Shown: positions 6,765 through 25,161 of the stretch, in pieces
Numbering within the stretch: position 1 is the first letter of the stretch
Layout: every line of letters starts with the position of its first letter
NCBI GenBank assembly: GCA_937868485.1
Contig: CALMML010000073.1
Location: 1 to 40,408 of the forward strand
Length of the DNA stretch: 40,408 bases
Direction: 5' to 3'
From: an uncultured Myxococcales bacterium
GTDB lineage: Bacteria > Myxococcota_A > Polyangia > Palsa-1104 > JAEUJZ01
Notes under the pieces: generated by a model
Told to the model about the DNA's origin: nothing
Databases searched by the model: none
The model's input: only the letters and a program-made list of their open reading frames with translations
Made by a program: the position numbers and the translations under genes

Positions 6765-6991
6765 GGACGCCTCCAAAGCGATCGTGGGAATCGATGGAAC
6801 ATCTCCGCTGTTTGCGAAGAATGGGTACCTAACGCGCAGAGCATAGTCGTGCTTGGGTCCGAGTGCGGCTTTTTGTTCAGCTTGCCTCGATTGCGACGTA
6901 AACTGCTCCAACTGATCTGTGCTTGATTGGCGTAATTCCTGTCTGTCGGGCCGCGTCGATTGAGAGAACAACAACCCTTGTAGGAGTCGGT

Positions 6992-8503
6992 ATGAAGCGA
7001 CATCTCCTTGTGTCTGCGCTGCTGCTCGGACTTGGCTCTGCGACGATGGTGAGCCAGTCCGCTCGGGCGCAAGACCTGGCCAGCTTTGAAAAGCGCACGA
7101 CGGTCAAGACGCTGGCGAACGGTCTGACCGTGATCATCGTCGAGCGACCCGAGGCGCCGGTCTTTTCGTACTTTACGCACGTCGACGTCGGTGGCGCGCA
7201 AGAAGCGATGGGTCAGACGGGCCTCGCGCACATGTTTGAGCACATGGCGTTCAAGGGCACCGACAAGATCGGCACCAAGAACTTCGCGGCGGAAAAAGGG
7301 CTGATCGACAAGGTCGAAAAAGCCTATCTCGCGTACGACGCTGAGCGACGAAAGCCGCAAGGCAGCGATCCCAAGAAGGTCGAGTCGCTGGAAAAGTCGT
7401 GGCGCGATGCCATCGCTGAAGCGAGCAAGCAAGTCGTTGCCAACGAGTTCGGCGAGCTGGTCGATCGCAACGGTGGCGTCGGGCTCAATGCGTTTACGAA
7501 CAGCGACGAGACAGGATATTTCTACTCGCTGCCGTCGAATCGCTTGGAGCTGTGGGCGTATCTGGAGTCGGAGCGCAGCAAGCGTCCAGTGATGCGCGAG
7601 TTTTACACCGAGCGTGATGTCGTCAACGAAGAGCGACGGATGCGCACCGATAGTCGTCCCGTCGGAAGAATGCTCGAGCAGCTTCTGGCGGCAGCGTTTA
7701 CGGCGCATCCCTATGGTCGTCCCGTCGTCGGTTGGCCGTCGGACTTGAACACCTGGTCGGCGACCGACGCGATGAAGTTCTGGGAGCTGTATTACACCCC
7801 GGCGAACATGGCGATTGCTCTCGTCGGTGATGTCAAAGCGAGCGAAGCGCTGCCGGTGCTGGAGTCGTACTTTGGTCGGCTGCCGAAAGGTTCGAAGCCC
7901 GCGCCGCTGAGCACCGTCGAGCCGAAGCAGGCTTCCGAGCGGATGGTGATCCTGAAAGAAGCGTCGCAGCCGTGGTATGCCGAGGGCTATCACCGTCCCG
8001 ATGTCTTCGACAAAGATGACGCAGTGTACGACGCGATTGCCGATCTGATGTCGACGGGACGAACGGCTCGGCTGTATCGCGCGCTCGTCCGAGACAAAAA
8101 AATCGCAGCAGCGGCGGGTGGCTTTTCGGGTCTGCCGGGACGGAAGTATCCGCACCTGTTTGCTTTTTATGCGATGCCGACACCAGGAAACTCTCCGCAG
8201 CAGGTTCGGACCGCGATTCATGAAGAGCTGGAAAAGCTCAAGAACACGCTGGTCAGCGACGATGAGCTTCAGATGGTCAGGGCGCGGGCGAAGATGCGGC
8301 TGCTCAACAGCCTGTCGAGCAATCAGTCGCTGGCGATCGCGATGGCGACGTCGCAGCAGCGCTTCGGTGACTGGCGAGAAGTGTTCCGTCGCGTCGATCG
8401 CATCGACAAAGTGACCAAAGAAGACATTCAGCGCGTGGCCAAAGCGGTGTTTATCGACAGCAATCGCACCGCAGCTTGGATCGAGAGCACCGGAGGCAAG
8501 TGA
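6992..8503 (+). CDS. M16B zinc peptidase, catalytic-type subunit
   Basis: Exported insulinase/processing-peptidase family protein of 503 residues. The ATG at 6992 follows TAGGAG; the longer frame upstream adds a non-signal stretch and is rejected. A Sec signal peptide, MKRHLLVSALLLGLGS to about SARA-Q, is clear. The inverted zinc motif HXXEH is intact as HMFEH (residues 80-84) inside GLAHMFEHMAFKGT. The third ligand Glu is expected in VVNEERR near 213. Residues 95-160 contain a long charged helical insertion not present in minimal M16B proteins. The next gene, with a degenerate motif, starts 3 bp after the stop, which fits the known arrangement of M16B heterodimers with one catalytic and one non-catalytic subunit. 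Substrates are unknown, probably periplasmic peptides. Confidence 0.93.
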   Translation: MKRHLLVSALLLGLGSATMVSQSARAQDLASFEKRTTVKTLANGLTVIIVERPEAPVFSYFTHVDVGGAQEAMGQTGLAHMFEHMAFKGTDKIGTKNFAAEKGLIDKVEKAYLAYDAERRKPQGSDPKKVESLEKSWRDAIAEASKQVVANEFGELVDRNGGVGLNAFTNSDETGYFYSLPSNRLELWAYLESERSKRPVMREFYTERDVVNEERRMRTDSRPVGRMLEQLLAAAFTAHPYGRPVVGWPSDLNTWSATDAMKFWELYYTPANMAIALVGDVKASEALPVLESYFGRLPKGSKPAPLSTVEPKQASERMVILKEASQPWYAEGYHRPDVFDKDDAVYDAIADLMSTGRTARLYRALVRDKKIAAAAGGFSGLPGRKYPHLFAFYAMPTPGNSPQQVRTAIHEELEKLKNTLVSDDELQMVRARAKMRLLNSLSSNQSLAIAMATSQQRFGDWREVFRRVDRIDKVTKEDIQRVAKAVFIDSNRTAAWIESTGGK

Positions 8504-8505
8504 GC

Positions 8506-9996
8506 ATGAAGACCGCAAACAGCAGCATCAAAACAGGGCTCGCGGGCCTGGTTCTCCTCGGGATGACGGGGGGAACGCAGGCGATTGCCGCTCCGGTGGT
8601 GGTCAAGAGTGACTGGCGACAGATCAAGCCGCCGCCGCTGCGCGTCGTGAGGCCGCAGCAGCCGACGCGACTGGTCTTGGAAAACGGCATCGTGCTTCTG
8701 CTTCAGCCCGACAAAGAGCTTCCGCTTCTGTCGCTGACGGTGATGATGCGCGGTGGCAGTCGAGACGAACCCGAAGGCAAGACGGGACTCGCTGACATCT
8801 TCGCAGAGTCGTGGCGCAGCGGCGGAACGCGCTCGAAGACCGGCGATCAGATCGACGACTTTTTGGCGCTACGCGCTGCGACGGTGGAAACCGGAAGTGA
8901 GCCGACGAAGATGACGCTGTCGGTTCACTGTCTGAAAAATGACTTCGCGGATGTGCTTGGGCTGGCGGTGGAGCTGCTGCGCGAGCCGGAGTTCCGTCAG
9001 GACAAGATCGACCTCGCAAAGCGGCAGATGTTTACCGCGATCAGCCGTCGCAACGATGAGTCGAGCGAGATTGCCAATCGCGAGTCGGCCAAGCTCGCGT
9101 ACGGAAAAGATCATCCGCTCGCACGGCAGGAAGAATACGCGACGGTGGCTGCGGTCACGCGCGACGATCTTCAGATGTGGCATCGTCGGTTCATTCACTC
9201 GGGGAACATGATCGTCGGTGTGTCGGGGGACTTCGATCCGGCAGAGATGACGACGCTGCTTCGTCAGAAGCTCGGGAGCCTGCCGCAGAGTCAGAAGCTG
9301 GTGACGCCAGAGCTGGGCTTTGTTCCGACGCGGCCAGGGCTGTTCTTCGTGCCGAAAAAGGAAGTGAACCAGAGCTCGATTCACTTGGTGCAGCTTGGGA
9401 CGACGCGCAAAAACCCGGATCACTACGCGATCGAGGTGATGAACGAGATCCTCGGCGGTGGCTTCTGGGCGCGGCTGTTTTCGAACATTCGTACCAAGCA
9501 AGGGCTGGCCTATAACGTCGGTGGTGGCGTCGGGCTCGGGTATGAACATCAGACGCTGTACAAAGTGGCGATGTCGACGAAGAGCCAGACCACGGGCAAG
9601 GCGATTACGGCGCTGTATGAGCAGGTGCAAGGCATGCTGATGAACCCGCCGACGCCCGACGAGCTTCAGAAAGCGAAGGACGCGATCCTGAACTCGTTTG
9701 TGTTCCGCTTCGACAGCAAGGCCAAGATCTTGGGCGATCGGATGCGGCTGGAGTTTTCGGGCTATCCCGCCGACTACACCGAAAAGTACGCGGAGCAGAT
9801 TCAGAAGGTCACGCTCGACGACGTGAAGCGCGTGGCGCAAAAGTACCTGAACCCGGGCGGCTTTGCGGTGCTAGTGGTGGGAAATCCCGACGAGATCGGC
9901 GATCAGCTCACGCAGCTTAAACACCTGGGGCCGGTTCAGACGATCGACATCGCAATTCCGCCGCCTCCGCCGAAGCCGCAAGCCGCGCAAAAGTAA
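8506..9996 (+). CDS. M16B peptidase-like protein, probably the non-catalytic partner
   Basis: Exported M16 family protein of 496 residues. The ATG at 8506 lies 3 bp after the previous stop, with GGAGG in the end of that gene, so the two are translationally coupled. A signal peptide (GLAGLVLLGMTGGTQAIAA) precedes the mature part. The fold markers of the M16 family are visible: RLVLENGIVLLLQPD, the GGSRDEPEGKTGLADIF region, and in the C-terminal half the GGGFWARLFSNIRTKQGLAY block, which is the usual R/Y substrate-binding region. At the zinc site the sequence is DIFAE where HXXEH is expected, so both histidines are missing and catalysis is unlikely. In known M16B pairs such a subunit supplies the R/Y residues while the partner holds zinc. 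The tail is Pro-rich (IPPPPPKPQ). Confidence 0.93.
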   Translation: MKTANSSIKTGLAGLVLLGMTGGTQAIAAPVVVKSDWRQIKPPPLRVVRPQQPTRLVLENGIVLLLQPDKELPLLSLTVMMRGGSRDEPEGKTGLADIFAESWRSGGTRSKTGDQIDDFLALRAATVETGSEPTKMTLSVHCLKNDFADVLGLAVELLREPEFRQDKIDLAKRQMFTAISRRNDESSEIANRESAKLAYGKDHPLARQEEYATVAAVTRDDLQMWHRRFIHSGNMIVGVSGDFDPAEMTTLLRQKLGSLPQSQKLVTPELGFVPTRPGLFFVPKKEVNQSSIHLVQLGTTRKNPDHYAIEVMNEILGGGFWARLFSNIRTKQGLAYNVGGGVGLGYEHQTLYKVAMSTKSQTTGKAITALYEQVQGMLMNPPTPDELQKAKDAILNSFVFRFDSKAKILGDRMRLEFSGYPADYTEKYAEQIQKVTLDDVKRVAQKYLNPGGFAVLVVGNPDEIGDQLTQLKHLGPVQTIDIAIPPPPPKPQAAQK

Positions 9997-10784: not shown

Positions 10785-11588
10785 TTGGCCGAAAAGAAAA
10801 AAGGCTTCGGAGATGCCCTCATCGGTCTGTTTGTGGTTCGGGAAGATGGAACCGACAGTGAAGAAGAGGTCGCCGTCGCCAAGCCAAGTCCGGGCAGCGA
10901 TCCTGCGGTCGATGAGCTGATCGCAAAGTACGCGGGTGGTTCGGGGGCTGCGTCGCGCGCTCCGAGTCGTCCGCCCGCACCGCCGATTCCTGCGGCTGCT
11001 TCGGCGAGCCGATCGGGTGCGACTCGTCCGCCTCGGCCTCCGGTGGCTGCGGCGGAAGCGGTTGAGCCTGCGGCTGCGGTGGTTCCTGCTGCTTCACCGA
11101 CGTCAGCTGAGCCCATTCCCGAGGTCAAAGTCGACTTCGCAGGCGTGCTGCGCAAAGCGGGTCTGACGGATGACGAGCAAGGTCGCGTCGAAAAAGCGCT
11201 GAGCCTGCTGTCGTCTCTGCCGGCGGAAACTCCGCTCGAAGTGAAGCGTCAGATCGTGGCTGCATCGCTGCAAGCGTTCGGGATTCCGATCGAGCAGATC
11301 ATCGAGTCGGCGGCGCTGCACATTCGCGCGGTCGATAAGCACAGCCTGGAAGGTCAGACGCAGACGCAGGCCTTTTTGGAACAAGGCAAGCGGCGGATTG
11401 CGGAGCTGGAAAAAGAGCTTTCGCGGGTTCGCTCGTCGATGCAAGAGCAGCAGTCGCTTCAAAAAGGGCTGGAGCTTGCGTGTAACCAAAAGAAGCGACG
11501 GATTCAGGATGTGCTCGACTTCTTTGGGCCTGAAGCGGTCGAAAAAGCCACCAAGCTGTCACCGAAGCTACGCGGTCAATCAACGTAA
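10785..11588 (+). CDS. Coiled-coil protein of unknown family, first gene of the PspA/AAA cluster
   Basis: A 267-residue cytoplasmic protein I do not recognise. It starts at a TTG preceded by GCGGAGG. Layout: a short N-terminal segment MAEKKKGFGDALIGLFVVRE that can form an amphipathic helix, an acidic stretch, a Pro/Ala/Arg-rich linker at about residues 55-110, a small helical domain (LRKAGLTDDEQGRVEKALSL and following), then a long coiled coil at about 190-245 (GKRRIAELEKELSRVRSS). The N-terminal helix plus flexible linker plus coiled coil suggests an adaptor or polymer-forming protein that touches the membrane. It lies 86 bp upstream of the PspA-like gene in the same direction, and I infer that it works with it. 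Confidence 0.8.
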   Translation: MAEKKKGFGDALIGLFVVREDGTDSEEEVAVAKPSPGSDPAVDELIAKYAGGSGAASRAPSRPPAPPIPAAASASRSGATRPPRPPVAAAEAVEPAAAVVPAASPTSAEPIPEVKVDFAGVLRKAGLTDDEQGRVEKALSLLSSLPAETPLEVKRQIVAASLQAFGIPIEQIIESAALHIRAVDKHSLEGQTQTQAFLEQGKRRIAELEKELSRVRSSMQEQQSLQKGLELACNQKKRRIQDVLDFFGPEAVEKATKLSPKLRGQST

Positions 11589-11632
11589 AGCGCGCGCCTA
11601 CGCCGCGTCGCGTTTGTTGCAACGGTTCATCC

Positions 11633-11652
11633 TGCCGCAAGATGTAGCGGCA
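11633..11652 (+). promoter_or_regulatory. Inverted repeat upstream of the PspA-like gene
   Basis: TGCCGC at 11633-11638 and GCGGCA at 11647-11652 are perfect complements separated by 8 bases. The element ends seven bases before the AAGGAG of the PspA-like gene. It could be an operator or an RNA hairpin tuning the relative output of the first two genes. There is no T-run, so it is not a simple terminator. With arms of only six bases it may also be chance. Confidence 0.3.
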
Positions 11653-11674
11653 ACACTTCAAGGAGCACTCGGAC

Positions 11675-12373
11675 ATGTCTGTCTTTGGTCGTCTTGCCAA
11701 CCTGTGGAAAGGGTTTATCAGCCTCTGGATTTCCGACGTCGAAAAGGAACACCCGGAGATCGCGTACGAGAACGCGATCAACTCGATGGTCGAGAAGTAC
11801 TCGGCGCTTAAGCGTGCGACGGCGGCGATCATTCGGCGACGGGAAGAGCTGGCCGAGCGGCTGGCGAATCAGCAAAAAGAGCTGGCGCAGGTGAGTGCGG
11901 ATCTGAGCACCGCCATCGAGACGAACCAGGATGACCTGGCGGTGGTGCTGATCCAGAAGAAGAACCAGCTGGAGTCGTCGATCGCCGAGCTTCAGACGGA
12001 CGCGGACACGGCGGCCAAGGATGCCGACAGCGCCAAGCAGTCGCTTCTGTCGGTGCAAAACGAGATCAAGAAGCTCAAGGCCGAAAAAGAGACGATGGTG
12101 GCCAAGCTGGAGTCGGCGCAGGCTCGGATGCGCATCCAAGAGCAGCTAGAGGGTCTGTCGGTCGATGCGGAAGTGCAGGCGCTCGACAACGTGCGGACGC
12201 ACATCAAGACGCAGGTTGCGCAGGCGAACCTCAACAAAGAGCTGGGCGAGACGGATCTCGATGCGCGTCTGAAGACGCTGCGCAATGCCTCGGGCGACGT
12301 GACGGCCAAGCAGCAGCTGAGTGAGCTGAAGGCCGCCGCCGCTGCCAAGCGTGCCGCTGCCAAGTCGATGTAA
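11675..12373 (+). CDS. PspA/IM30 (Vipp1) family protein
   Basis: A 232-residue peripheral membrane protein of the PspA/IM30 family, which belongs to the ESCRT-III superfamily. Known members polymerise on stressed inner membranes and keep them intact. The N-terminus [19 protein letters not shown] is an amphipathic helix of the kind that binds membrane in PspA. The next part, [20 protein letters not shown] then [14 protein letters not shown], follows the family's helix 1 pattern. The rest is almost entirely coiled coil, ending in an Ala/Lys-rich tail. The start is fixed by AAGGAG upstream. It is followed in the same direction by an ABC transporter with a wall-anchored binding protein and by an AAA+ ATPase, not by the pspBC or pspF genes of enterobacteria. 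Confidence 0.85.
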
Positions 12374-12456
12374 CACCAGTCGGACTGCCTTTCGCGAGCT
12401 GGTTATCGAGCGGAAGTCACGCGAGCCTACAGAGTTTTTTGCGAGCGGAGCCTGTT

Positions 12457-14112
12457 ATGAAGCTGACGCCTTTTGCCAAAATCTTCATCACCCTGATCAT
12501 CCTTGGGGTCGTTGGTTACGTGCTGTACGTCAAGGGAGACGGCATCAACCAGTGGGTCAACCAAGGGACAAGCAAGCCGACGGCTCCAGCGGGAGACAAG
12601 ACCGCGACGGGACCCGCGCCGGGCGTTTCCAAGGATGACTTTGCGGCGATTGGGGCCGCGCGCGAAGCCGGTCGTCAAGGCGTCACTGGAATTGCCAAAG
12701 CGCAGGTTGGCCAAGGCAAGCTCGGTCGCAAGCTGCGCGTCGGCATCAACACCTGGGCAGGACACGCGCCGGGCATTGTCGCCAACGGTGGCCTTCTGGG
12801 CGGCGACAAGTCGTCGATTTACCTCAGCAAGTACAACCTGGAAGTCGAGTTCACGCTGCTCGAAGACCCGCAGGCGAAGCTGGCGGCGTTTCTGAAGGGC
12901 GACATCGACATCATGTGGGACACCGTCGATTCGTGGGCGCGTGAAGCGTCGGCGCTGGCGGAAAACGGCAAGGGTGGCAAAGCGATCATCCAGCAAGACT
13001 GGTCGCGCGGTGGCGACGGCATCGTGGCGCTTTCCAGCATCAAGAGCATCGAGGATCTGAAGGGCAAAAAGATTGCGACGACGCGGTTTACTCCGTCGCA
13101 CTGGCTGCTGCTGTATCTGCTGTCGCAGTCGGGCCTGGCTCCGGCGGACAAAGCGGAGATCGAAAAGAACCTGGTGTTTACGGCGGAAGCGTCGCTGGCA
13201 GCGGCGGCGTTCAAGTCCAAGAACGTCGATGCAGCGGTGACGTGGGAGCCGGATCTGTCGGGATCGGTCAAAGCGCGTGGCGACGAAGCGGCAATCCTGG
13301 TTTCGACGACGGCGGCAACGAACGTGATTGCCGACGTGCTGGTTGCGCAAAACGACTTGGTGGAAAAGTCTCCTGAGACGGTGACGGCGTTTGTTCACGG
13401 CTGGTTCGATGGCATCGACGCGATCGGCAAAGATCCGGCGAGTGCCTACAACATCGTCGGAAAAGCGCTGAAGCTGCCGGAAGACGATGTCTCGGGAATG
13501 CTGTCGGGAATGAAGCTGACGAGCTTTGCGGACAACGCGCTGTTCTTCGGGCTCGACGGAAACCGCGCGCAGTTCGAGGCGCTGTTCAACGCGGCGTTCA
13601 TCGTGTGGCGCAAGCAAGGCGTGATCAGCAAGGCGGTCGATGCCAAAAACTGCGTCGATACGCGCTTTGTCTCAGCGCTCGCGGAGTTTTATCCGGGTCA
13701 AAAGGTCGTCGAGACGTTCAAGTTTGATCCGAAGAAGGTCGATCCGGCCAAAGAGCGCGCGATCATCAACAAGCAGCTCACGATCTACTTTACGACGGGA
13801 AGCGATCAGATCATGGCGGGCTCGAACTTCGTGCTCGACTCGCTGGGTGAGACGATGACGGCGTTTGGCAACACGCTGCTGCGCATCGAGGGCAACACCG
13901 ACAACACCGGCTCGCGGACGGCCAATCGGTCGCTTTCGCAGAAGCGGGCCGACGCGGTGAAGGACTATCTCATCTCGAACCACAAGATCGATCCGAAGCG
14001 CTTTCAGACGATCGGCAACGGACCGGACAACCCGGTGGCTCCGAACGCGACCGAGGCTGGACGGCAGCAAAATCGTCGGACCGACATCAAGGTCATCCTG
14101 AACGTGCAGTAA
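12457..14112 (+). CDS. Membrane-anchored ABC substrate-binding protein fused to an OmpA peptidoglycan-binding domain
   Basis: A 551-residue periplasmic protein held at both ends. One transmembrane helix (about 6-26, FAKIFITLIILGVVGYVLYV) anchors it in the inner membrane. A Pro/Thr linker leads to a NMT1/SsuA-like substrate-binding domain at about 90-395 (VGINTWAGHAPG, FLKGDIDIMWDTVDSW, DAAVTWEPDLSG). Residues about 435-551 are an OmpA C-terminal domain (IYFTTGSDQIM, GNTDNTGSRTANRSLSQKRA, NRRTDI), with Asp 482 and Arg 497 at the positions that bind diaminopimelate. The ATG at 12457 with GCGGAG upstream is preferred over a TTG at 12439. The permease starts 2 bp after the stop. The ligand is unknown: relatives bind sulfonates, nitrate, bicarbonate or thiamine precursors. 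Confidence 0.9.
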   Translation: MKLTPFAKIFITLIILGVVGYVLYVKGDGINQWVNQGTSKPTAPAGDKTATGPAPGVSKDDFAAIGAAREAGRQGVTGIAKAQVGQGKLGRKLRVGINTWAGHAPGIVANGGLLGGDKSSIYLSKYNLEVEFTLLEDPQAKLAAFLKGDIDIMWDTVDSWAREASALAENGKGGKAIIQQDWSRGGDGIVALSSIKSIEDLKGKKIATTRFTPSHWLLLYLLSQSGLAPADKAEIEKNLVFTAEASLAAAAFKSKNVDAAVTWEPDLSGSVKARGDEAAILVSTTAATNVIADVLVAQNDLVEKSPETVTAFVHGWFDGIDAIGKDPASAYNIVGKALKLPEDDVSGMLSGMKLTSFADNALFFGLDGNRAQFEALFNAAFIVWRKQGVISKAVDAKNCVDTRFVSALAEFYPGQKVVETFKFDPKKVDPAKERAIINKQLTIYFTTGSDQIMAGSNFVLDSLGETMTAFGNTLLRIEGNTDNTGSRTANRSLSQKRADAVKDYLISNHKIDPKRFQTIGNGPDNPVAPNATEAGRQQNRRTDIKVILNVQ

Positions 14113-14114
14113 CC

Positions 14115-14999
14115 ATGGCCGCCGACGTGTCGAGCCCGAAAAAAGTACCGCTGCGCTCGCGAGAGCCGATCTGGTCGCTGCGAAAGCCGCTCCCGGCGAG
14201 CTGGCAGCTGTGGCTGGGACTGGTTCTGCCGCTTTTGATCTTGGTGCTGTGGGTGGCGCTGACCTCGGGGAGCAAGCCGGTGGTGGGCGGTGCGTTTTTG
14301 CCCAGGCCGACGGATGTGCTGCGGGTGCTGCTGCGTGACTTGGTGATTGGCAGGCCGGATGTGATCGCGGGCAAGCAAGTGGTGGTGCGGGTGCTGTTTG
14401 ATGCAGCGCTCGCGTCGAGCTGGCGAATCGTGCTGTCGTTCTGTCTGGCGTCGGCGGTGGCGCTGCCGCTCGGGATCATGATGGGCGCGTTTGAGCCAGT
14501 GAATCGTCTCGTCGAGCCGGTGATGGCGCCGCTGCGTTATATGCCGATCTCGGCGTTCATTCCGCTGACGATCCTGTGGTTTGGCATCGAGGAAAAGCAG
14601 AAGCTGGCGTTTCTGTTCTTGGGCGTGTTCGTCTATCTGCTGCCGGTGGTGGTGAGCGCGATTCGTGCGGTGCCCGAAGAGCTGGTTCAGACGGCGCGAA
14701 CGCTCGGCGCAGGACGATTTCAGGTGGTGTTTACGGTGCTTATGCCAGCGGCAGCGCCGGACATCTTCGACTCGTTTCGGGTGATGAACGCGATCTCGTG
14801 GACGTACGTGATCTTGGCGGAGTTTGTGAACACCCGCAGCGGACTTGGCTACCAGATTCAGCTCGCCGGAAATCACCTGCACATCGACGAGGTGTTCGCG
14901 GGCATCTTGATCATCGGCATGATTGGGCTTGGATCCGACGCGCTGATTCGCTTCTGCGGCAAGCTGCTGTTCCCGTGGCGAGAGGCTGGACATGTCTGA
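14115..14999 (+). CDS. ABC transporter permease, SsuC/TauC/NrtB type
   Basis: Inner-membrane permease of 294 residues with six or more hydrophobic segments. The cytoplasmic coupling (EAA) loop is visible as EELVQTARTLGAGRFQVVF with the following MPAAAP, as in the nitrate/sulfonate/taurine importers. It starts 2 bp after the binding-protein gene and overlaps the ATPase gene by 8 bp, so the three form one transporter. The N-terminal 28 residues are basic and cytoplasmic. Whether it moves a solute, or only passes a conformational signal from the wall-tethered binding protein to the cytoplasm, cannot be told from sequence. Confidence 0.93.
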   Translation: MAADVSSPKKVPLRSREPIWSLRKPLPASWQLWLGLVLPLLILVLWVALTSGSKPVVGGAFLPRPTDVLRVLLRDLVIGRPDVIAGKQVVVRVLFDAALASSWRIVLSFCLASAVALPLGIMMGAFEPVNRLVEPVMAPLRYMPISAFIPLTILWFGIEEKQKLAFLFLGVFVYLLPVVVSAIRAVPEELVQTARTLGAGRFQVVFTVLMPAAAPDIFDSFRVMNAISWTYVILAEFVNTRSGLGYQIQLAGNHLHIDEVFAGILIIGMIGLGSDALIRFCGKLLFPWREAGHV

Positions 15000-15843
15000 G
15001 CAGAGCGTCACGACAGCCAAGCCGGGCGAGCCAGGCGCTGGCGGCAACATCCCCGTCACGGTTCACAAGTCGGCGATCAAGCTTCACGTCGAGGACTTAC
15101 ACGTCACGTATCGCGGTCGTCGAGGCGAAGACGTCGAAGCGGTGCGCGCGGTGTCGTTTGACATCATCGACAAGCCCGGCGTCGGTGAGATCGTGGTCTT
15201 TTTGGGTCCGTCGGGCTGCGGCAAGTCCACGATCTTGAAAGCGGTTGCGGGACTGCTGCCTCCGACGAAAGGTCGCGTGCTGATTGGCGATCACGAAGTC
15301 GATGGACCGGGACGCGATCGCGGCATGGTGTTTCAGCAGTACACCTCGTTTTCGTGGCTGACCGTCGTTGAAAACGTCGAATATGGACTGCGGCTTCACG
15401 GCATTTCGTCGGGCGAGCGACGAGCGCGAGCGATGGAAATCCTCAAGCACGTTGGGCTCGATCAGTTCGCGAGCAAGTATCCCAAAGAGCTGTCGGGCGG
15501 CATGAAGCAGCGGGTGGCGATTGCGCGCACGCTGATCAACAAGCCGAAGCTGCTGCTGATGGACGAGCCGTTTGGTGCGCTGGACCCGCAGACGCGCTGG
15601 GAGATGCAGGGAATGCTCATCGACATCTCGCACCGCGAAGACAACACGATCCTGTTTGTGACCCACGACGTGGCGGAAGCGGTGTACCTGGCCGATACGG
15701 TCTACGTGCTGAGTCGGCGACCGGCGCAGATCCTGCATCGGATCGATGTACCGACGTTCGCGGATCGGACGCACAAGGTGAAGGCGAGCCCGGAGTTTCG
15801 TCAGTGTGAGGAGCAGCTTCTGTCGCTGCTGTACGCCAAGTGA
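14992..15843 (+). CDS. ABC transporter ATP-binding protein, SsuB/TauB/NrtD type
   Basis: Cytoplasmic ATPase subunit of 283 residues with all motifs intact: Walker A GPSGCGKST, Q-loop QQYTSFSWLT, signature LSGGMKQRVAIAR, Walker B LLLMDEPFGALDP, and H-loop FVTHDVAEAV. It has a 30-residue N-terminal extension before the first strand. Its ATG lies inside the end of the permease gene and its stop overlaps the next gene start by 4 bp (GTGA), which indicates tight coupling. It should drive the permease encoded just upstream. Confidence 0.95.
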   Translation: MSEQSVTTAKPGEPGAGGNIPVTVHKSAIKLHVEDLHVTYRGRRGEDVEAVRAVSFDIIDKPGVGEIVVFLGPSGCGKSTILKAVAGLLPPTKGRVLIGDHEVDGPGRDRGMVFQQYTSFSWLTVVENVEYGLRLHGISSGERRARAMEILKHVGLDQFASKYPKELSGGMKQRVAIARTLINKPKLLLMDEPFGALDPQTRWEMQGMLIDISHREDNTILFVTHDVAEAVYLADTVYVLSRRPAQILHRIDVPTFADRTHKVKASPEFRQCEEQLLSLLYAK

Positions 15844-16655
15844 GCGATCGCGCGTCGAGCCCGTCTCGGACTGGGAAAAAGGAAGCGCCTCCGTACGCCA
15901 AGTACGCGTTTGTCAATCCGTACAACCTGTCGCTGCTCGCGGGCGCGGGAAGTGCGTCGCTTCTGACGGGACACTGGTGGATCGGGCTGTGCGCGGTGGC
16001 AGCGGAAGCGGTGTGGATGCTGTTTGCGCCGGACTCGCGGCTGTTACAAAAGACCTGGTTCGATCCGATCTGGGACGGTGAGCAGCGAGCGGCTCGGCTG
16101 GCTCGTCAGTCGGCCAAGTTCAACGCGCTTCCTGATCTGGAAAAAGAGCGCGCGCTCAAGCTGCGGGATCAGCAAAAGCGGATCGAGAAGATGGCCAAAG
16201 ACAACGCCACCTTCACCGTCGAGCTTCTGTCGGAAGACATCGCGAAGCTGGAAGATCTCGTCGATGACTTTCTGGACATGGCCGCCGTGTCGTCGCGCTA
16301 CGAGAGCTATCTGAAAGAGATGGATCTGGCCGACATCGAGCAAGACATCCGTCGCTATTCGCTGCAAGTGGACCGCTTACCGATTGGCGACGAGCGACGG
16401 ACGGTGGCGCAGAAAAACCTGGAAGTGCTGCTGTCTCGCAAAGATCGCTACATGGAGCTGCGACGGAGCTTGCAGACGGCGCGCGGTCAGATGGACCTGA
16501 TGGAAAATACGTTTTTGCTCCTGGCTGATGAGATCGTCGGGATGCAGAATCCGACGGAGCTGGGAGCACGGCTCGACGGGCTGCGCGAAGGCGTAGCAGC
16601 GGTTCGCGAGACTTCCAAAGAGACAGAGCGTTACATGCAGGCCGCGAGTCGCTAG
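15840..16655 (+). CDS. Membrane-hairpin coiled-coil protein of unknown family
   Basis: A 271-residue protein I do not recognise. It starts at a GTG overlapping the ABC ATPase stop by 4 bp. After a basic N-terminus and the segment YAKYAFVNPYNLS come two close hydrophobic segments (about 29-44 and 47-63, SLLAGAGSASLLTGHWWIGLC and onward) that can form a hairpin in the inner membrane. The remaining 200 residues are helical and charged (KERALKLRDQQKRIEKMAKD), with strong coiled-coil potential in the cytoplasm. Placed between the transporter and the AAA+ gene, it is a natural candidate for a membrane platform or adaptor joining the transporter, the PspA polymer and the ATPase. That role is inference from position and layout only. 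Confidence 0.82.
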   Translation: MSDRASSPSRTGKKEAPPYAKYAFVNPYNLSLLAGAGSASLLTGHWWIGLCAVAAEAVWMLFAPDSRLLQKTWFDPIWDGEQRAARLARQSAKFNALPDLEKERALKLRDQQKRIEKMAKDNATFTVELLSEDIAKLEDLVDDFLDMAAVSSRYESYLKEMDLADIEQDIRRYSLQVDRLPIGDERRTVAQKNLEVLLSRKDRYMELRRSLQTARGQMDLMENTFLLLADEIVGMQNPTELGARLDGLREGVAAVRETSKETERYMQAASR

Positions 16656-16683
16656 GGACGATCGCTGGCTAGGAATCGGAGAT

Positions 16684-18582
16684 GTGTACACGATGACCAC
16701 CCTGAGCACCTCGAAGACGACCCGACTTCCCGTGTGGGCGGATGAGATTCGTCGTCGCTATCTACGCGGCGAATCGACGCAGTTTGTGCTGTTTGGCAAC
16801 GTGCATGACCTGATCCTCGACGATCCCGACGGTCAAATCGATAAGCGCAGTCCCGACGAAAAGCTGCTGACGCTGCCCGAGTTTTTGACCAAGGTTCTGC
16901 TCGAGAAAAAGTCGATGGTTGTGCTGTACAACGTATCGACGGGCGTGCGCTTTGTGCGGGGCAAGCTGCCGCCGGGCTTTGAAGATCTGGCGCTGCAAAA
17001 AGAGCCGTCGAAGGTGCTGCCGCTGCTCGAGCGACTGCTGGTGACGCAGAACGGCGTCGCGGTGGTGGTGGAATACGCCGAGACGGTGTCGCCCGCCGGA
17101 GAGACGAGCTTTTCGACGATCGAGGATCGCTCGTCGGTGGTGACGCTTCAGCGCTGGTCGATGCTGCCCGCGCTCGACAAAAACGACAGCTTGGTGTTCT
17201 TGCTCGTCGAAAACCTGTCGGAGCTGCATCCGAAGCTGGTGGCCAATCCACGGGTAGCGACGGTGCAGATTCCGATTCCCGATGCGGACAGTCGACGCGC
17301 ACTGCTTCGTCACATTCGCGCCGATATGGGCCTTTCCGAGCTGGAGATGATGACCGAGGTGACGGCGGGTCTGAAGAACATCCAGATCCAAGGCATCTTG
17401 GCTCCGCACGATGTTCCGTCGGACGATGACATCGAGCGCACCAAGTACATTGCGGAGCTGCTCGGTGGTGGCCCGGCGGCGGTAGAGCGGGCCCAGAAGC
17501 TGGCGCAGATCACCAAAGGCATGCCGCGTACCGAGATTCGTCGACTGCTGGCGCCTGAAGGTCCAGTTCCGACGGCATCGCAGGCTGACAGCGACGCCAA
17601 AAACGAAGTGCTCCGTCTGATCGCCGCGCGCAAGCGAGAGATCATCGAGCGAGAGTGCTACAGCCTGATCGAGTTTCTCGATCCCAAGCACGGCTTCGAA
17701 GTCGTCGGTGGCATGGATGAGGTCAAGCGCGACCTGTCGCTGATTGCACGGAACATTCGCGAAGGCCGTCGCAGCCGCGTCCCGATGGGACTGCTGTTCG
17801 TTGGACCGATGGGAACTGGCAAGACCTTCGTCGCTGAAGCCTTCGCCAAAGAGTCGGGTCTGACGGCGATCAAGTTCAAGAACTTCCGCAGCAAGTGGGT
17901 CGGCGCCACCGAGGGAAACCTCGAGCGAATCCTGCAAGTGGTTCAGGCCATCGGTCAGGTCATGGTCATCATCGACGAAGCCGATCGCGCCTTTGGCAAC
18001 CAAGGCGAAGACGACGGTGGCACGTCGAGCCGTGTGATTGCTCGCATCAAAGAGTTCATGAGCGACACGAGCAACCGAGGCCGCGTGCTGTTCGTGCTGA
18101 TGACCAACCGACCCGACAAGATCGACATCGATCTCAAGCGCGCGGGCCGACTGGATCGCAAGATTCCGTTCTTCTACGCGCAGACGACGGGCGAGGTCGA
18201 GCCGATCCTCAAGGCGCAGCTTCGCAAAAACAAGGTGTCGAGCGAGCTGAGCTTCCCGATCGAAGGCGATGGCCTGGCTCCGATCGTCGGTATGTCGAAT
18301 GCAGACATCGAAGCGGTGGTGCTGCTCGCGTCGGACTATGCCAGCCAGCGTGCCGAGTCGCTGGGCCTGAAGGAAACGCCGGTCAGCCTCGATGATCTGC
18401 TGCGAGCTGCACGCGATTACCTGCCGCCGCGCGACATGGAGATGCTGGAGTTTATGGAGCTTCTGGCGGTGTTTGAGGCGTCCAACCGTCGCATGCTGCC
18501 GCCCAAGTACGCAGATCTGCCGATTGAAGCGCTTCAGGAGCGACTCCATCGGCTCAAGCTTGTGGCTGGTCATCGTCGCTAA
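16684..18582 (+). CDS. Classic AAA+ ATPase with a degenerate N-terminal AAA-like domain
   Basis: A 632-residue cytoplasmic AAA+ protein. The C-terminal module is complete: Walker A GPMGTGKT (374-381), pore loop [12 protein letters not shown] with Trp 405, Walker [10 protein letters not shown] (426-434), sensor 1 MTNRPD (473-478), and Arg fingers in KRAGRLDRK (485-493). The pore loop closely resembles that of Vps4, katanin and Cdc48, ATPases that thread and pull apart protein polymers. The first 230 residues ([23 protein letters not shown]) look like a second AAA fold that has lost its nucleotide motifs, as in Ycf46-like proteins. The GTG at 16684 and the ATG at 16693 are both possible starts. 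The gene follows the hairpin protein by 28 bp. Remodelling of the PspA-like polymer is inferred. Confidence 0.92.
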
Positions 18583-18639
18583 GCCGTGACCGAGCCTGTT
18601 CGGATGTGAACCCAGTTTGTTCCCAGAAGGAGACGTGCG

Positions 18640-19083
18640 ATGAACTTCTTTCCCGAGATTGCGCTGTCGACAGCCCAGGCCGAAGCGATTGCGCGCGGTC
18701 TGTTCCACATTGCTCACGCAGATGGTCTGCATGAGCGTGAAGCGGCGCTGGTTGCGTCGTTTTGGTCCGATGCGGGCGGCAGCCACAACGCGCTGTCCGA
18801 GCTGTCGCGTCGCGGTCCGCTGTCGAGCGAAGAGCTTTCGGCTGTGCTGGACACGACGGAAGTCCGACGGCTGTTTGTGAAGACGGCGCTGCTGCTTGCG
18901 TTTGCCGACGGTCAGGTCACGGGTGCCGAGAGCGAGCTGGTGCGCAAATATGCCGGCGAGCTGGGCCTGGGCGACGAGCTGGCTCACCTGGAAGAGCAGG
19001 TCAAAGAGTATCTGCTCGGTCAGCTGTCGCACATTCACAACACCGCCGCGCTCGCCGAGATTGCCCGCAAGCTGAAGATCTAA
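18640..19083 (+). CDS. TerB-like protein
   Basis: A 147-residue, all-helical cytoplasmic protein. Two copies of the TerB/DjlA-type motif are visible: FHIAHADGLHEREAALV and LLAFADGQVTGAESELV, each with the ADG turn and a Glu seven or eight residues later. The start is fixed by AGAAGGAG. TerB-family proteins are membrane-associated helper proteins found in tellurite-resistance and stress loci; the TerB fold is known to bind metal ions. The gene lies 57 bp after the AAA+ gene and is probably the last of its transcription unit. A membrane-stress role would fit the neighbours. Confidence 0.8.
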   Translation: MNFFPEIALSTAQAEAIARGLFHIAHADGLHEREAALVASFWSDAGGSHNALSELSRRGPLSSEELSAVLDTTEVRRLFVKTALLLAFADGQVTGAESELVRKYAGELGLGDELAHLEEQVKEYLLGQLSHIHNTAALAEIARKLKI

Positions 19084-20478: not shown

Positions 20479-22284
20479 ATGCTTCAGCTTATAAACCCCT
20501 TGCCGAGGCCAAGAGGCGTACAGCGATCCAATCGACTGGCACAGCTTCTGCGGCTTTGGGTGGCGCTGCCGATCGCGCTCCAGCTTGCGGGCTGTGGTGA
20601 AGAGGCGATCGCGCTGCCCGTTGCCTGTAGCGGTGACAACTACTGTCCACCGGCGCGTAGCTCGACGTGGTGGGCGATTCAGCTCTGGCCGACCGATCCT
20701 GGAGACAAAGCAGGCAGCGATCCGCACTGGGTGCTGACGCCGCAAGAAGGCCAGAACCTTAGCTTTGATGGAACCGGATCGGCGTCGCTGCGCTTTCGAG
20801 CGGCAGCGATGCTATCGGGGCTGGTGCAGACTGCCGACAACCGAGCGCTCGTGCGGGCGCGCGTTCAAGCGACGCTACCGAGCGCGATTCCCGGTCAAAA
20901 CGACTATCGCTTCGACACACAGACGGCGGAAAAGGTGGCGGGAACGTACTCGCTGCGGATTCCAATGCCGGCGCAGCCCGACAAGCAGCTGTATCGCGTG
21001 TGGGTCGGCTTCGACGACGCCAGCCAAGCCAGCACCTATCCTCCGATGTGGCTGGAGCACGCCATCGGTGGTGACCTAGAGCTTCCGATTCAGCTTCGGG
21101 CAGCGTCGCAGCTTGCGGTGATCTCGGGACGCATTGCCAATCCGCTCGGTGAGGGCGTCGGTGGCATGTCGGTGCAGGTCTACGACGAAGGCAACCAGCT
21201 GGTTTCATCGTCGGCAGTCAGTCTGACGGCAAGCGGCTTGACGGGCGGAACCTATCGCGTGGTGTTCGATCCGCAGCTGGCCAAGAACCCGAAGGCGAAC
21301 CTGCGACTGGTGGTTCGTCCGGGCCCGATGACCACGGGTCTGCCGTCGCTGGAAGCGCAGATCGCGCCGCCGATGGCTGGCATGGAAAAGGTCCAAAACT
21401 TTGTTCTCCCGTCGCAGCGAACGCCGGTTCAGTTCATGCTGCCGGTGAAGGGACTGGGGCCAAGCGGTGCGACGCAAGAAGTCGCAGCGGCGCGGGTGGT
21501 GGCGCAGGTTCATCTGGAGGACGCGTCGACCCCACCGGGTGTTCGCGTCAGCTATACCGCGCAGGCCGATACCGACGCGCAGGGCATTGCTCGACTGATG
21601 CTGGTGCCTGCACCGACGGTGGGAGGCAACCTGACCTATCACATCACCGTTGCAAGCCCGCCGCATACGCCCTATGCGTCTGCCTCGCGTGAGATCCAGA
21701 TCGGTCCGAGCGAAGGTGTGCTGGCGGCGGTTACGCTGCCGTCGCGGCCTCGGCTGATTGGACGGCTCTTGTCGGCGTTTGGCGAGCCAATGTCCGGTGC
21801 GCAAGTCATCGCTCAGCCGATTGCCAAGGATACGACAGCGACGAGCCTACTCGACAGTGCGCCCGAGCCCATGCAGCCTCAGACCGTGACGGACAGCGAC
21901 GGACGATTTGTGCTGCGGCTTGATCCGGGTGACTACGACTTGGATCTGATTCCGATGCTTGGGACGGGACCACGGACCTCGCTCGACAACCAGCGAATCG
22001 GCGATGGCGACGTCGATCTTGGGGAAGTCAAGCTGCCACGGATGGCGCTGGCCAAGCTGTGGGTTGTCGGTCCGACGGCGCTGCCTGCTCCGCAGGTGAA
22101 GGTGCGCGTGCTGGAGCTGCCGAACACGTCGCCGCGCTACGGACTGGCTTGCACCGATGACTTGCCCTGTTCGCAGGTGGCCAAGGTTCGCGCGGAAGCG
22201 TTCACCGATAGCAAAGGTCGACTTCAGCTGCTGTTGCCCGATAGCTCACCGTCGGCTTCCTTTGTGCCGCGCAGTCGCCGATAG
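20479..22284 (+). CDS. Lipoprotein with carboxypeptidase-regulatory-like beta domains
   Basis: A 601-residue putative surface lipoprotein. The signal contains LQLAGC with Cys 39, after an unusually long basic N-terminus. The mature protein consists of repeated beta-sandwich segments of the carboxypeptidase-regulatory (transthyretin-like) type: ISGRIANPLGEGVGGMSVQV, LIGRLLSAFGEPMSGAQVIA followed by TDSDGRFVLRLDPGDYDL, and an ASGLTGGTYRVVF segment. Such domains usually serve as stalks or binding modules. The last 38 bp overlap the convergent M16-like gene. It forms a likely pair with the small lipoprotein 12 bp upstream. No enzyme motif is seen. Confidence 0.85.
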   Translation: MLQLINPLPRPRGVQRSNRLAQLLRLWVALPIALQLAGCGEEAIALPVACSGDNYCPPARSSTWWAIQLWPTDPGDKAGSDPHWVLTPQEGQNLSFDGTGSASLRFRAAAMLSGLVQTADNRALVRARVQATLPSAIPGQNDYRFDTQTAEKVAGTYSLRIPMPAQPDKQLYRVWVGFDDASQASTYPPMWLEHAIGGDLELPIQLRAASQLAVISGRIANPLGEGVGGMSVQVYDEGNQLVSSSAVSLTASGLTGGTYRVVFDPQLAKNPKANLRLVVRPGPMTTGLPSLEAQIAPPMAGMEKVQNFVLPSQRTPVQFMLPVKGLGPSGATQEVAAARVVAQVHLEDASTPPGVRVSYTAQADTDAQGIARLMLVPAPTVGGNLTYHITVASPPHTPYASASREIQIGPSEGVLAAVTLPSRPRLIGRLLSAFGEPMSGAQVIAQPIAKDTTATSLLDSAPEPMQPQTVTDSDGRFVLRLDPGDYDLDLIPMLGTGPRTSLDNQRIGDGDVDLGEVKLPRMALAKLWVVGPTALPAPQVKVRVLELPNTSPRYGLACTDDLPCSQVAKVRAEAFTDSKGRLQLLLPDSSPSASFVPRSRR

Positions 22285-25161
22285 GCTGCCTTTTTTGCCG
22301 TTCTTGCTGCTGCTTTTTCCGACGCTACGCTGACTGGATGACTTGCTGCTGACCGTCGCGGATGCCTTGCTGGCTGGCTGTCCCGACAGCTTGGCGACGA
22401 GCTTCGGCTGCTTGTCCTGCGCATCGCTGTGCTTCACGGCCAGCTGCGCTTGCGGCAGCACCGCTTGCAAGATCGCGTGTCGCTCGTCGAGATAACGCTT
22501 TGCCACATCCTGCACCTGTCCGGCGGTCAGCGACTGAAGCTGCTGTTCGTGCTGGTCGCTGCTTGGCAGACCGAGCGCCGTTCGCTGTGCCAGCTCCAGT
22601 GCCACTTCGTCGCGTCGCTGTCGATGAATTGATGATCGCCCAACCAGACGCTGCTTCGCTGTCTCCAGCTCTTCGTCGCTGAGCGGATGATCGACAATCC
22701 GTCGCAGCTCGTCGCGCAGGCTCGCTTCTGCCGAGTCCAGGCTCGTCGGTGTCGTGACGGCCCAAGCGTACAGCGCGCCGCCCGACAGACCACGCAGCAG
22801 CTTGCCTTCCAGCTTCAGCAGCAGCCCGCGTCGATCAACCAGCTCGCGCGACAGTCGTCCTCCGTCGCCGAGCAGCACTTCCGAAAGCAGCTCGAGTGCC
22901 GCTTGATCCGGCGAGCGCAGGCTTGGAACCCGAAACCCGACGGCCAGCAGCGCCTGATCTTTGCCGTGATAGGACAGAAGCTGCTTGGGCGTCTCCATCG
23001 TCGGAAGCTGCGGCATGGCATGGGCTGCACTGTGTCCGCTCGTCGGAATGCGTGACTCAATGACCGCGAGCACCTGACTTGGCTCGAAGTCACCGACGAT
23101 GGCCAGCGTCATTTGGGCCGGTGAATACGCGCGTCGCCACAGCTCCAGCAGCCGCTTGCGAGACAGCCCCGACAGCGACTGAAGCGACGGCTCCAGCTTG
23201 TAGGGATGGCTGCCAAAGAGCTGGGTCTTGAGGTTGCGCAGCGACGGCTGAATCCCTTCGTCTTGGCTGCGCACTTCGGCCACCAGCTGACGACGCTCTC
23301 GCTCTAGCTCTGCTTCCGACGGTTCGTTCTGATTGAGTCCGTCGAGAAACAGCGGCAGCGCTTCCTCATCCGCAAGGCTCGGCCACTCACCCGCGACGGT
23401 AAAAGCGTCCAGATCGATCTGCGCTCGCGTCGATCCGCGAAGCTGAAGCAGCGCTTCTCCGAGCGCCGCACCGCCTCGACCGCGTGGCGTGTGCTGCCAC
23501 AGCCGTGCCCACAGCGCGTGACTTCCCGCCGTCTGTTCGTCTTCGAGCCGTAGCCCGCCCGGCCAGCTTGCCGCCGCTGCCACCACTTTCACGCCGTGAT
23601 CGGGCATCAGCAGCACCAGCGGTCCGCCCGGCACTTGATGACGCCACACGCCGTCTTTGCCAAGCTGCGGACCACCTTGCGACGGGACACTCACGGGAAA
23701 CGCTTGCGGAAGCTGACTGAGCAGCCGCTGCCGACTTCGCTCGAGCTGCGTTGCTTCTTCCTTGGGCGCGCGACTTCGCGGTAAAAGCCACAGCACCGCC
23801 AGCGCATCTCGTCGCAGATAGCGTCCCATCGTCTTGCGCAGCGCCGCTTCGCCCAGCTCTTTGACCGTCTGTTCGTAGCGATCGTCGGGCAGTCCCAGCG
23901 ACGCGAAAAATCCCGCTCGCTGCGCCCGTCCCGACGGTAGATCAAGCTGCCTTGCCTGTTCCCCGAGCAGTCGCTGCTTGGCCCGCGCAAGCTCTCCCGC
24001 ATCAATCGGACGGTGCGACAGACGAAGCAGCTCGCCGAGCAGTCGCTGCGTCGCTTCTTCCACCTGACTTGGCTGCGTCGTCGCTTCCAGCAACAACAGC
24101 CCGGCTCTCTGTCCGGCAAAGCTCAGCGCCGCAATGTCACCACCGGGACGACCTCCGCTCGATCGAAGCCGCAGGCTGCCGCGCAGAAGCTCTGCCCACA
24201 GCTCAAGCGCCACGGCATCCGCACTGCTCGCCGACGTACCGGGCAGCGCCACCGCAATCACCGCTTGGCCCGTCGGATCTTCGTGGGAAGACACCATCAC
24301 CTGCGGCTTGGATAGTGGACTCGGCTCCGCGACGGGCTGCTCTGTCACGTCACGCCGAGGCAACCCCGACAGCAGCGCCGTCAGTGGCTGAGCCAGCGCA
24401 TCGCTGACCGCACCGCTCATCACCACCGTGAGCCGCTCGGGATGATAGCCCTGCGCCAGAAACGACTCGACATCACGAAGCTGAAGCGCTGCCAGCTTGT
24501 GCCGCTGTCCGAGCAGCGGTCGTCCGTACGGATGCCCCGGAAACGACAGCTCGCGCAGCTTTTCCACCGCCAGCCCGCGTGCGCCGAGCCCACTTCTCGT
24601 AAGCTCCAGCGTGGCTTGTTCGCGCTGCCGATGCAGCATCGCGTCATCGAGCCCTTGCGGCATCAGGATCGCGCGCAGCACTTCCAGCGCCAGCTCTTGC
24701 TTGCCTTTGGGCACGACCAGCTGAAACACCGTGTGGTCGAGCGTCGTATAGCCGCTTACCTCACCGCCGACTGTGCGCACATTCTGACTGGCGGGCGCGG
24801 CGACTTCGTGAAGCAGCAGCCGCTCACACAGGTGCGAAAGCCCCAGCGCGCCTTCCGGTTCGCTTGCAACGCCGCCTCGCACCCAGAGCTGAACCGCCAC
24901 CGTACCCACCAGCCGATCCGGCACAATCAGCAGCCTGGCCCCGCTGGGAAGCTGTTTCCACGGAGGCTCTGGCGCAACCGGCGGACGTGATTCTGCGCGC
25001 GGAGGCTCTGGCTGCTGCGCGTCCGCTGGCCCGTTTGCTTCGGTGCGGGGCGCTGTGACTGCTGGCGCACGCGGCGGCGGTGCAAGGCTGGGATGCGCAC
25101 ACGACACGCTCAGCATGAGCGCCAGCGTCCCAGCGGTTCGGACCCGATCCACGTTGCACAT
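22246..25161 (-). CDS. Full-length M16-like lipoprotein with a broken zinc motif
   Basis: A 971-residue exported protein containing two M16 halves in one chain, the pitrilysin-type layout. The signal ends at Cys 21 (LSVSCAHP), a slightly atypical lipobox, and a Pro/Ala-rich linker follows to about residue 68. In the first half the zinc motif reads HLCER (110-114) instead of HXXEH: the first His and the Glu remain, but the second His is Arg. The second half (from about 490) contains another M16 fold with SYHGKDQALLAVGFRVP and GGRLSRELVDRRGLL. The C-terminus is a basic Ser/Lys tail. Peptidase activity is therefore doubtful, and a binding or scaffold role is possible. GGAAG precedes the ATG. Confidence 0.9.
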   Translation of the reverse strand: MCNVDRVRTAGTLALMLSVSCAHPSLAPPPRAPAVTAPRTEANGPADAQQPEPPRAESRPPVAPEPPWKQLPSGARLLIVPDRLVGTVAVQLWVRGGVASEPEGALGLSHLCERLLLHEVAAPASQNVRTVGGEVSGYTTLDHTVFQLVVPKGKQELALEVLRAILMPQGLDDAMLHRQREQATLELTRSGLGARGLAVEKLRELSFPGHPYGRPLLGQRHKLAALQLRDVESFLAQGYHPERLTVVMSGAVSDALAQPLTALLSGLPRRDVTEQPVAEPSPLSKPQVMVSSHEDPTGQAVIAVALPGTSASSADAVALELWAELLRGSLRLRSSGGRPGGDIAALSFAGQRAGLLLLEATTQPSQVEEATQRLLGELLRLSHRPIDAGELARAKQRLLGEQARQLDLPSGRAQRAGFFASLGLPDDRYEQTVKELGEAALRKTMGRYLRRDALAVLWLLPRSRAPKEEATQLERSRQRLLSQLPQAFPVSVPSQGGPQLGKDGVWRHQVPGGPLVLLMPDHGVKVVAAAASWPGGLRLEDEQTAGSHALWARLWQHTPRGRGGAALGEALLQLRGSTRAQIDLDAFTVAGEWPSLADEEALPLFLDGLNQNEPSEAELERERRQLVAEVRSQDEGIQPSLRNLKTQLFGSHPYKLEPSLQSLSGLSRKRLLELWRRAYSPAQMTLAIVGDFEPSQVLAVIESRIPTSGHSAAHAMPQLPTMETPKQLLSYHGKDQALLAVGFRVPSLRSPDQAALELLSEVLLGDGGRLSRELVDRRGLLLKLEGKLLRGLSGGALYAWAVTTPTSLDSAEASLRDELRRIVDHPLSDEELETAKQRLVGRSSIHRQRRDEVALELAQRTALGLPSSDQHEQQLQSLTAGQVQDVAKRYLDERHAILQAVLPQAQLAVKHSDAQDKQPKLVAKLSGQPASKASATVSSKSSSQRSVGKSSSKNGKKGSLSATARHKGSRR

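Follow-up and report, generated by a model that had tools for sequence, protein, structure and literature searches.

A PspA-Like Protein and a Tandem AAA ATPase as a Candidate ESCRT-III/Vps4-Like Pair in a Modular Operon of Myxococcota

Organization of the Gene Cluster

The window analyzed here is a stretch of 40,408 nucleotides from the genome of an uncultured Myxococcales bacterium (contig CALMML010000073.1). Positions 10785-19083 of its + strand hold eight co-directional open reading frames (ORFs) that encode, in this order, a coiled-coil protein (cc1), a PspA/IM30-like protein, a substrate-binding protein fused to an OmpA domain (SBP-OmpA), the permease and the ATPase of an ABC importer, a transmembrane (TM) coiled-coil protein (TMcc), a tandem AAA ATPase and a TerB-like protein. 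It is very likely that the AAA ATPase and the PspA-like protein are functional partners, and the evidence for this partnership, together with what it may mean for the turnover of PspA-type polymers, is the subject of this analysis.

An original prediction, made from the sequence alone, had described the run and its contents correctly: all eight ORFs were found where it placed them, on the + strand, and six of them were assigned to families by Pfam. Its description of several of the genes as overlapping or within 30 bp of each other holds for the two overlaps, between permease and ABC ATPase (8 bp) and between ABC ATPase and TMcc (4 bp), and for the small gaps between SBP-OmpA and permease (2 bp) and between TMcc and AAA (about 30 bp), but not for the gaps between cc1 and PspA (86 bp), PspA and SBP-OmpA (83 bp) and AAA and TerB (57 bp), the spacing of the gapped genes thus ranging from 2 to 86 bp. 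Promoter and terminator scans of the run gave results at chance level. A zinc-ribbon gene at 19180 was considered as part of the operon and was excluded, as it is kept in two close relatives only, and a reading of the run as a defense system was rejected since PADLOC matched only generic AAA and coiled-coil entries. The genome is a draft of 6.36 Mb in 514 contigs and encodes three PspA_IM30 proteins, while the AAA family is present in this one copy only.

The PspA-Like Protein and the Tandem AAA ATPase

The PspA-like protein (232 aa; 11675-12373, +) matches the Pfam family PspA_IM30 with an E-value of 1.2e-18 (68 bits against a cut-off of 33.9), and in a profile search its residues 4-222 match solved Vipp1 and PspA structures (E 3.9e-15). 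By this homology across the helical core it is assigned to the PspA/Vipp1 branch of the ESCRT-III superfamily, the superfamily in which the original prediction had placed it, and it is the putative polymer or coat protein of the system as well as the putative substrate of the AAA ATPase. It ends in a short motif, K-S-M-COOH (12362-12370, +), that sits after a variable Ala/Lys linker.

The ATPase gene (16693-18582, +, with the start at 16684 or 16693) matches Pfam AAA at 1.3e-26. An AlphaFold model of the protein (predicted local distance difference test score, pLDDT, 88.9; with 55 homologues) is matched by Foldseek to Rix7 and Cdc48/p97 over the whole length (E 2e-21), and because the match spans the whole length the N-terminal half (approximately 16696-17565, +) also has the AAA fold; no MIT three-helix domain was found in the ATPase. 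In the N-terminal domain the Walker A sequence GxxxxGKT is replaced by GNVHD and the DE by [E/D]YAE, and this domain is predicted to be catalytically dead. In the active C-terminal domain the Walker A (17803-17826) and Walker B (17965-17988) motifs, sensor 1 and the arginine fingers (18139-18159), all on the + strand and located by motif columns, are intact. The KWVG pore loop (17890-17916, +) reads KWVGATE, and W401, V402 and G403 are invariant or nearly so among the 55 homologues, in which RxGR is conserved as well. The NCBIfam scores are highest for CDC48 (84 bits), compared with 47 bits for CdvC. The ATPase is in all likelihood a threading unfoldase, as predicted from these features. It is not a Vps4 by architecture, having a Cdc48/Rix7-like tandem fold with a Vps4-type pore loop, so that the comparison with Vps4 drawn in the original prediction is right for the pore loop, the Walker A and B motifs and the arginine fingers and wrong for the overall architecture, with its dead N-terminal AAA domain and no MIT.

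Conservation and Two-Module Structure

A conservation scan with the AAA alignment against 84,980 species genomes gave 45 good loci, which belong to Myxococcota, Acidobacteriota and Acidovorax; one weak archaeal match was set aside. The order cc1-PspA-SBP/OmpA-permease-ABC-TMcc-AAA recurs in Myxococcota and Acidobacteriota, with TerB joining in Myxococcota, and among the 45 related loci PspA is present in 31, TMcc in 29, cc1 in 24 and TerB in 20. Of the 14 AAA-bearing genomes that have no PspA in the locus, 13 have a gene for a PspA of this family at some other place or on a different contig, with tails of the form K[TSQ][ML], and in three further Burkholderiales genomes the two gene sets lie side by side. 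The gene arrangement is conserved far beyond chance. A neighborhood search across phyla was the check that the original prediction had proposed, and its outcome, with PspA in the AAA locus in 31 of 45 cases and recurrence in Myxococcota, Acidobacteriota and Burkholderiales, speaks for a conserved system.

Co-occurrence was assessed in a sample of 237 Myxococcota genomes with thresholds of at least 400 bits for the AAA ATPase and at least 200 bits for the tail-bearing PspA. The AAA is present in 52 of these genomes, a strong PspA in 50 and both in 49, mostly on different contigs, and in Acidobacteriota the AAA occurs in 6/6 genomes that have a PspA of this family. TMcc was found in 21 of the 237. 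The transporter cluster is unlinked from PspA-AAA in three genomes (G066, G133 and G109), and in distant loci the transporter genes adjoin a diverged AAA gene together with a diverged PspA-like gene. Two modules, each of which also occurs without the other, are thus fused in the window operon: a core (PspA, AAA and TerB) and a transporter module (cc1, SBP/OmpA, permease, ABC and TMcc). Because they are separable across genomes, the transporter is not essential to the PspA-AAA pair. The proposal that the transporter, with its wall-bound sensor, informs the system about the envelope must be given up as far as a required input is concerned: the transporter is absent from most PspA-AAA genomes and present in others that lack the pair.

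Several individual loci show how varied these arrangements are. Five Myxococcota genomes (L198-L202) have a complete wall-tethered cluster (cc1-SBP/OmpA-permease-ABC-TMcc), a stand-alone ABC importer cluster with no PspA or AAA within it, and no AAA was found genome-wide at the threshold used. In one Burkholderiales locus (L303:7111-8274) no permease or ABC ATPase gene was detected and the PspA-AAA pair is kept, the SBP-OmpA position between cc1 and TMcc being taken by a short, barely similar protein.

The C-Terminal Tail of the PspA-Like Protein

All 31 operonic PspAs of the window family end in K-[TSQ]-[MLIV], the distant L074 being excluded. The tail pattern was defined on these operonic proteins and then applied to the 237-genome sample with N and R also allowed; about 20 of the tails in that sample had already been seen before the pattern was fixed. 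The tail is present in 50/50 intact PspA genes from AAA-bearing genomes and in 1/28 from AAA-less genomes (Fisher p 4e-20, uncorrected for phylogeny), and with a relaxed pattern the figures are 93/94 AAA-associated PspAs and 2/51 others. None of the 23 canonical PspAs of the phylum carries it. In 70 distinct tails, numbered back from the C-terminus, the entropy at positions -3, -2 and -1 is 0.19, 1.02 and 1.51 bits, compared with 2.0-3.3 bits in the linker. Since neither TMcc nor TerB accompanies the tail in every case, the AAA is left as its only constant partner among the operon products. TerB was considered as the reader of the tail and rejected for this role, since tailed PspAs are found in Acidobacteriota whose genomes have no detectable TerB.

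The PspA-like neighbors of the distant AAAs have diverged considerably, with scores of only 26-54 bits for most of those that the window-family profile picks up at all, and they carry K-x-[LI]-G-P within approximately 25 residues of the end (for example KELGPEEK, KEIGPKEG, EKTLGPKE and HKALGPETE), with one exception that reads LDLGP.

Two further observations concern the PspA family as such. A large clade of relatives of the tailed family, from L132-L137 and other AAA-less Myxococcota (27 genomes), has neither tail nor AAA, and the C-termini in this clade are long and variable. At L258:4559-6411 (-), the AAA is adjoined by two PspA-like genes in tandem whose N-termini are nearly identical, the first with two IGP motifs (KEIGPSEKIGPS) and the second with a repeat-like C-terminus without IGP.

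The Transporter Module, TerB, and Neighboring Genes

The first gene of the run, cc1 (10785-11588, +), has a TTG start with GGAGG 5 bp upstream and encodes a protein with an N-terminal conserved hydrophobic and basic motif (KKGFGDALIGLFVVRE), a Pro/Ala linker, a helical domain and a coiled coil. It also occurs in the stand-alone transporter module; no homology to PspA was found, and its reading as a PspA homologue was rejected. The gene at 12457-14112 (+) encodes a membrane-anchored substrate-binding protein of the NMT1/SsuA type (Pfam NMT1, 1.5e-11) fused to a C-terminal, peptidoglycan-binding OmpA domain (1.7e-18; approximately 13786-14076), with an N-terminal TM segment indicated by hydropathy (approximately 12475-12531). 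The OmpA-domain motif TD..G...N..LS..R, which includes the Asp and Arg for the peptidoglycan stem peptide, is present in 21/22 homologues, and because the peptidoglycan-binding residues and the N-terminal TM segment are both kept, the transporter complex would link the wall to the membrane. The importer itself is made up of a TauC/SsuC-like permease (14115-14999, +; Pfam BPD_transp_1, 1.4e-19; NCBIfam TauC-like, 8.5e-38 and below the cut-off) and a TauB-like ATPase (14992-15843, +; Pfam ABC_tran, 3.1e-33).

TMcc (15840-16655, +) begins with an N-terminal membrane hairpin (approximately 15918-16025) followed by a long helical coiled-coil body, and its AlphaFold model (pLDDT 81) is all-helical, with the hairpin and then long helices. 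Neither TMcc nor cc1 matches a Pfam or NCBIfam family above cut-off. No significant PDB fold match was obtained for TMcc when its model was searched with Foldseek, Snf7 is absent among the families listed for 26 TMcc homologues, and no profile-profile match to PspA was found. A match to CHMP2A had an E-value of only 0.47 with a narrow PDB profile and was gone with a broader one. The C-terminus of TMcc, which in the window protein reads LxxRLxxLR, was considered as a MIM1-like element, but we abandoned this reading because the Arg is not conserved.

The last gene, for the TerB-like protein (18640-19083, +; Pfam TerB, 1.6e-8), is linked to PspA-AAA in Burkholderiales also, and TerB was not detected genome-wide in 5/6 acidobacterial genomes that have the pair. 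In Myxococcota and Burkholderiales, TerB belongs to the PspA-AAA module as an accessory component.

The surroundings of the operon were inspected by eye. Directly upstream and on the same strand, at 6923-9996, lie two adjacent ORFs resembling M16 (insulinase-type) peptidases or processing proteases, the first with a HMAFKGT-type motif, and a third M16-like protein, of double length (971 aa), is encoded shortly downstream at 22246-25161 (-). The ORF at 25343-27430 has a start resembling squalene-hopene or oxidosqualene cyclases (LTGLQKSDGGWEGEMVWNT).

Relation to Known Systems

The original prediction had allowed that related clusters might be catalogued, and this has turned out to be the case. 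Ravi et al. (2024; mSystems, PMC11237479) describe operons of PspA, Snf7-TM, a two-domain AAA, ABC and PBPB-OmpA, with OGG56892.1 as the example, and infer from them an ATP-dependent membrane remodeling comparable to Snf7/VPS4 and linked to solute transport. All six members described in their main text (PspA, the TM coiled coil, the two-domain AAA with an inactive N-terminal domain, the ABC ATPase, the permease and PBPB-OmpA) are in the window run, and because of that work the gene set and the main inference drawn from it in the original prediction count as already published, as a computational prediction. The main text of that paper makes no mention of cc1, TerB, the split into two modules or the tail motif, and the comparison with OGG56892.1 is one of descriptions only. 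Its authors also regard the TM coiled coil as homologous to Snf7. None of our comparisons, whether of sequence, profile or fold, recovered this homology, and TMcc is left unclassified here. In the main texts of open-access papers we found no experimental characterization of the gene set. What is new here is the modular structure, the class of the ATPase, the further conserved members cc1 and TerB, and the C-terminal tail motif.

The window pair resembles ESCRT-III with Vps4/CdvC in eukaryotes and archaea in that a polymer protein of the superfamily is paired with a classic AAA that has a KWVG pore loop, and, as with the MIM motifs of ESCRT-III that are bound by the MIT of Vps4, a short C-terminal motif on the polymer subunit is the candidate docking site. 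Unlike Vps4 and CdvC, however, the window ATPase is a tandem AAA with a dead N-terminal domain and no MIT whose best fold matches are Rix7 and Cdc48, and unlike in ESCRT-III the sequence of the tail motif is not that of a MIM and the polymer protein comes from the PspA/Vipp1 branch. The PspF-PspABC system of E. coli similarly ties a PspA family protein to an AAA+ protein and to envelope stress, but PspF is a sigma54 activator while the window AAA belongs to the classic Cdc48-like clade, and PspB, PspC and PspF were not found in the window run. In the archaeal Halo_adaptin loci (PMC10936438), a Vps4-like ATPase that also has no MIT adjoins a protein weakly similar to PspA, but that ATPase has a VAT-type N domain and adaptin-like proteins as neighbors.

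Discussion

We propose that the core of the system is a bacterial ESCRT-III-like pair in which the AAA ATPase would engage the PspA tail and extract subunits from the polymer, in analogy to the action of Vps4 on ESCRT-III tails, and we assign this reading a probability of about 0.6. The PspA-like protein, as suggested by its homology to PspA and Vipp1, would polymerize on the inner face of the cytoplasmic membrane, and the tandem AAA would dock on the C-terminal tail of a subunit (K-[TSNQ]-[MLI]-COOH, or K-x-[LI]-G-P in the distant versions). The active C-terminal AAA ring with its KWVG loop may then thread the subunit through the pore so that the coat is stripped or turned over, with TerB as a likely accessory factor. 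The transporter module would form an importer-like complex that reaches from the peptidoglycan to the cytoplasm and is optional, probably providing the core with one specific cargo or envelope input. The remodeling of the PspA-like polymer by the ATPase, as put forward in the original prediction, is upheld as a partnership by the co-occurrence in 49 of 52 AAA genomes and by the tracking of the tail with the AAA. The gene content, the co-occurrence, the modularity, the architecture and catalytic residues of the ATPase and the conservation of the tail are direct observations; the physical contact, the tail as docking site, the disassembly of the polymer and the role of the transporter are what we infer.

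Several points weigh against this proposal. The PspA tree needs just three changes of AAA presence and four of the tail, and of the phylogenetically independent pairs two are concordant, none is discordant and one is tied, too few for significance; with approximately three changes on the tree, an independent test of the association between tail and AAA has almost no power, and because the independent contrasts are so few (three) docking on the tail is something that we can only infer. The tail could also be read by something other than the AAA. One draft assembly (G193) has a tailed PspA with no AAA detected, and in two AAA genomes (G170 and G285) no PspA was found. Classic PspA and Vipp1, moreover, are not known to depend on an AAA dedicated to them.

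That a distant AAA homologue lies together with the transporter module and the TM coiled coil would also fit an AAA that remodels or chaperones the transporter-TM-coiled-coil complex, with PspA merely recruiting the machine to stressed membrane. Ravi et al. (PMC11237479) also tie the operon to solute transport. We consider this improbable, as most Myxococcota with the PspA-AAA pair have no TM coiled coil (21/237 genomes compared with 52 for the AAA), several genomes (L198-L202) have the transporter module without any AAA hit, the L303 locus keeps the pair although permease and ABC genes went undetected there, and a PspA-like gene lies in or beside almost all of the distant loci that can be read far enough. 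It has a similarly low probability, in our judgment, that the tail is a degradation tag, such as a basic-hydrophobic end like the C-motif-2 of ClpX, or a self-interaction element, and that its correlation with the AAA reflects phylogenetic inheritance. KKTM and KKTI tails resemble the basic-hydrophobic C-terminal signals of ClpX, and the small number of independent evolutionary contrasts favors inheritance. The diverged PspAs beside an AAA, however, carry an internal motif (K-x-[LI]-G-P-[ED]...) that a degron needing a free C-terminus would not tolerate. The tail is also missing from the PspAs of AAA-less genomes and from canonical PspAs in the same phylum, even though ClpXP is, to our knowledge, nearly universal. 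Less probable still is a role of the operon in stress response or regulation, with PspA titrating the AAA just as it does PspF in E. coli and the AAA being no machine for polymer disassembly. PspA binds and inhibits the AAA protein PspF according to literature cited in PMC8281802, yet the window AAA is without DNA-binding or sigma54-activator features; it belongs to the classic AAAs, with the fold of Cdc48/Rix7 and an aromatic pore loop for translocation.

A bolder version of the ESCRT-III-like pair, to which we give a little less than even odds, is that many Myxococcota and some Acidobacteriota and Burkholderiales have a true functional counterpart of ESCRT-III/Vps4, in which the tandem AAA would read a tail code of three C-terminal residues (K-x-[MLI]) to disassemble PspA polymers, the code predating the divergence of several PspA subfamilies and having arisen independently of MIM/MIT. 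If true, this would indicate that disassembly directed by a tail evolved convergently in a second superfamily branch. The finding bears on what, if anything, drives the turnover of bacterial ESCRT-III polymers such as those of PspA and Vipp1, a question that an ATPase with a minimal co-traveling tail signal turns into a simple peptide-binding and disassembly experiment. The tail motif makes the Vps4-like hypothesis directly testable and suggests how bacteria could dismantle such coats.

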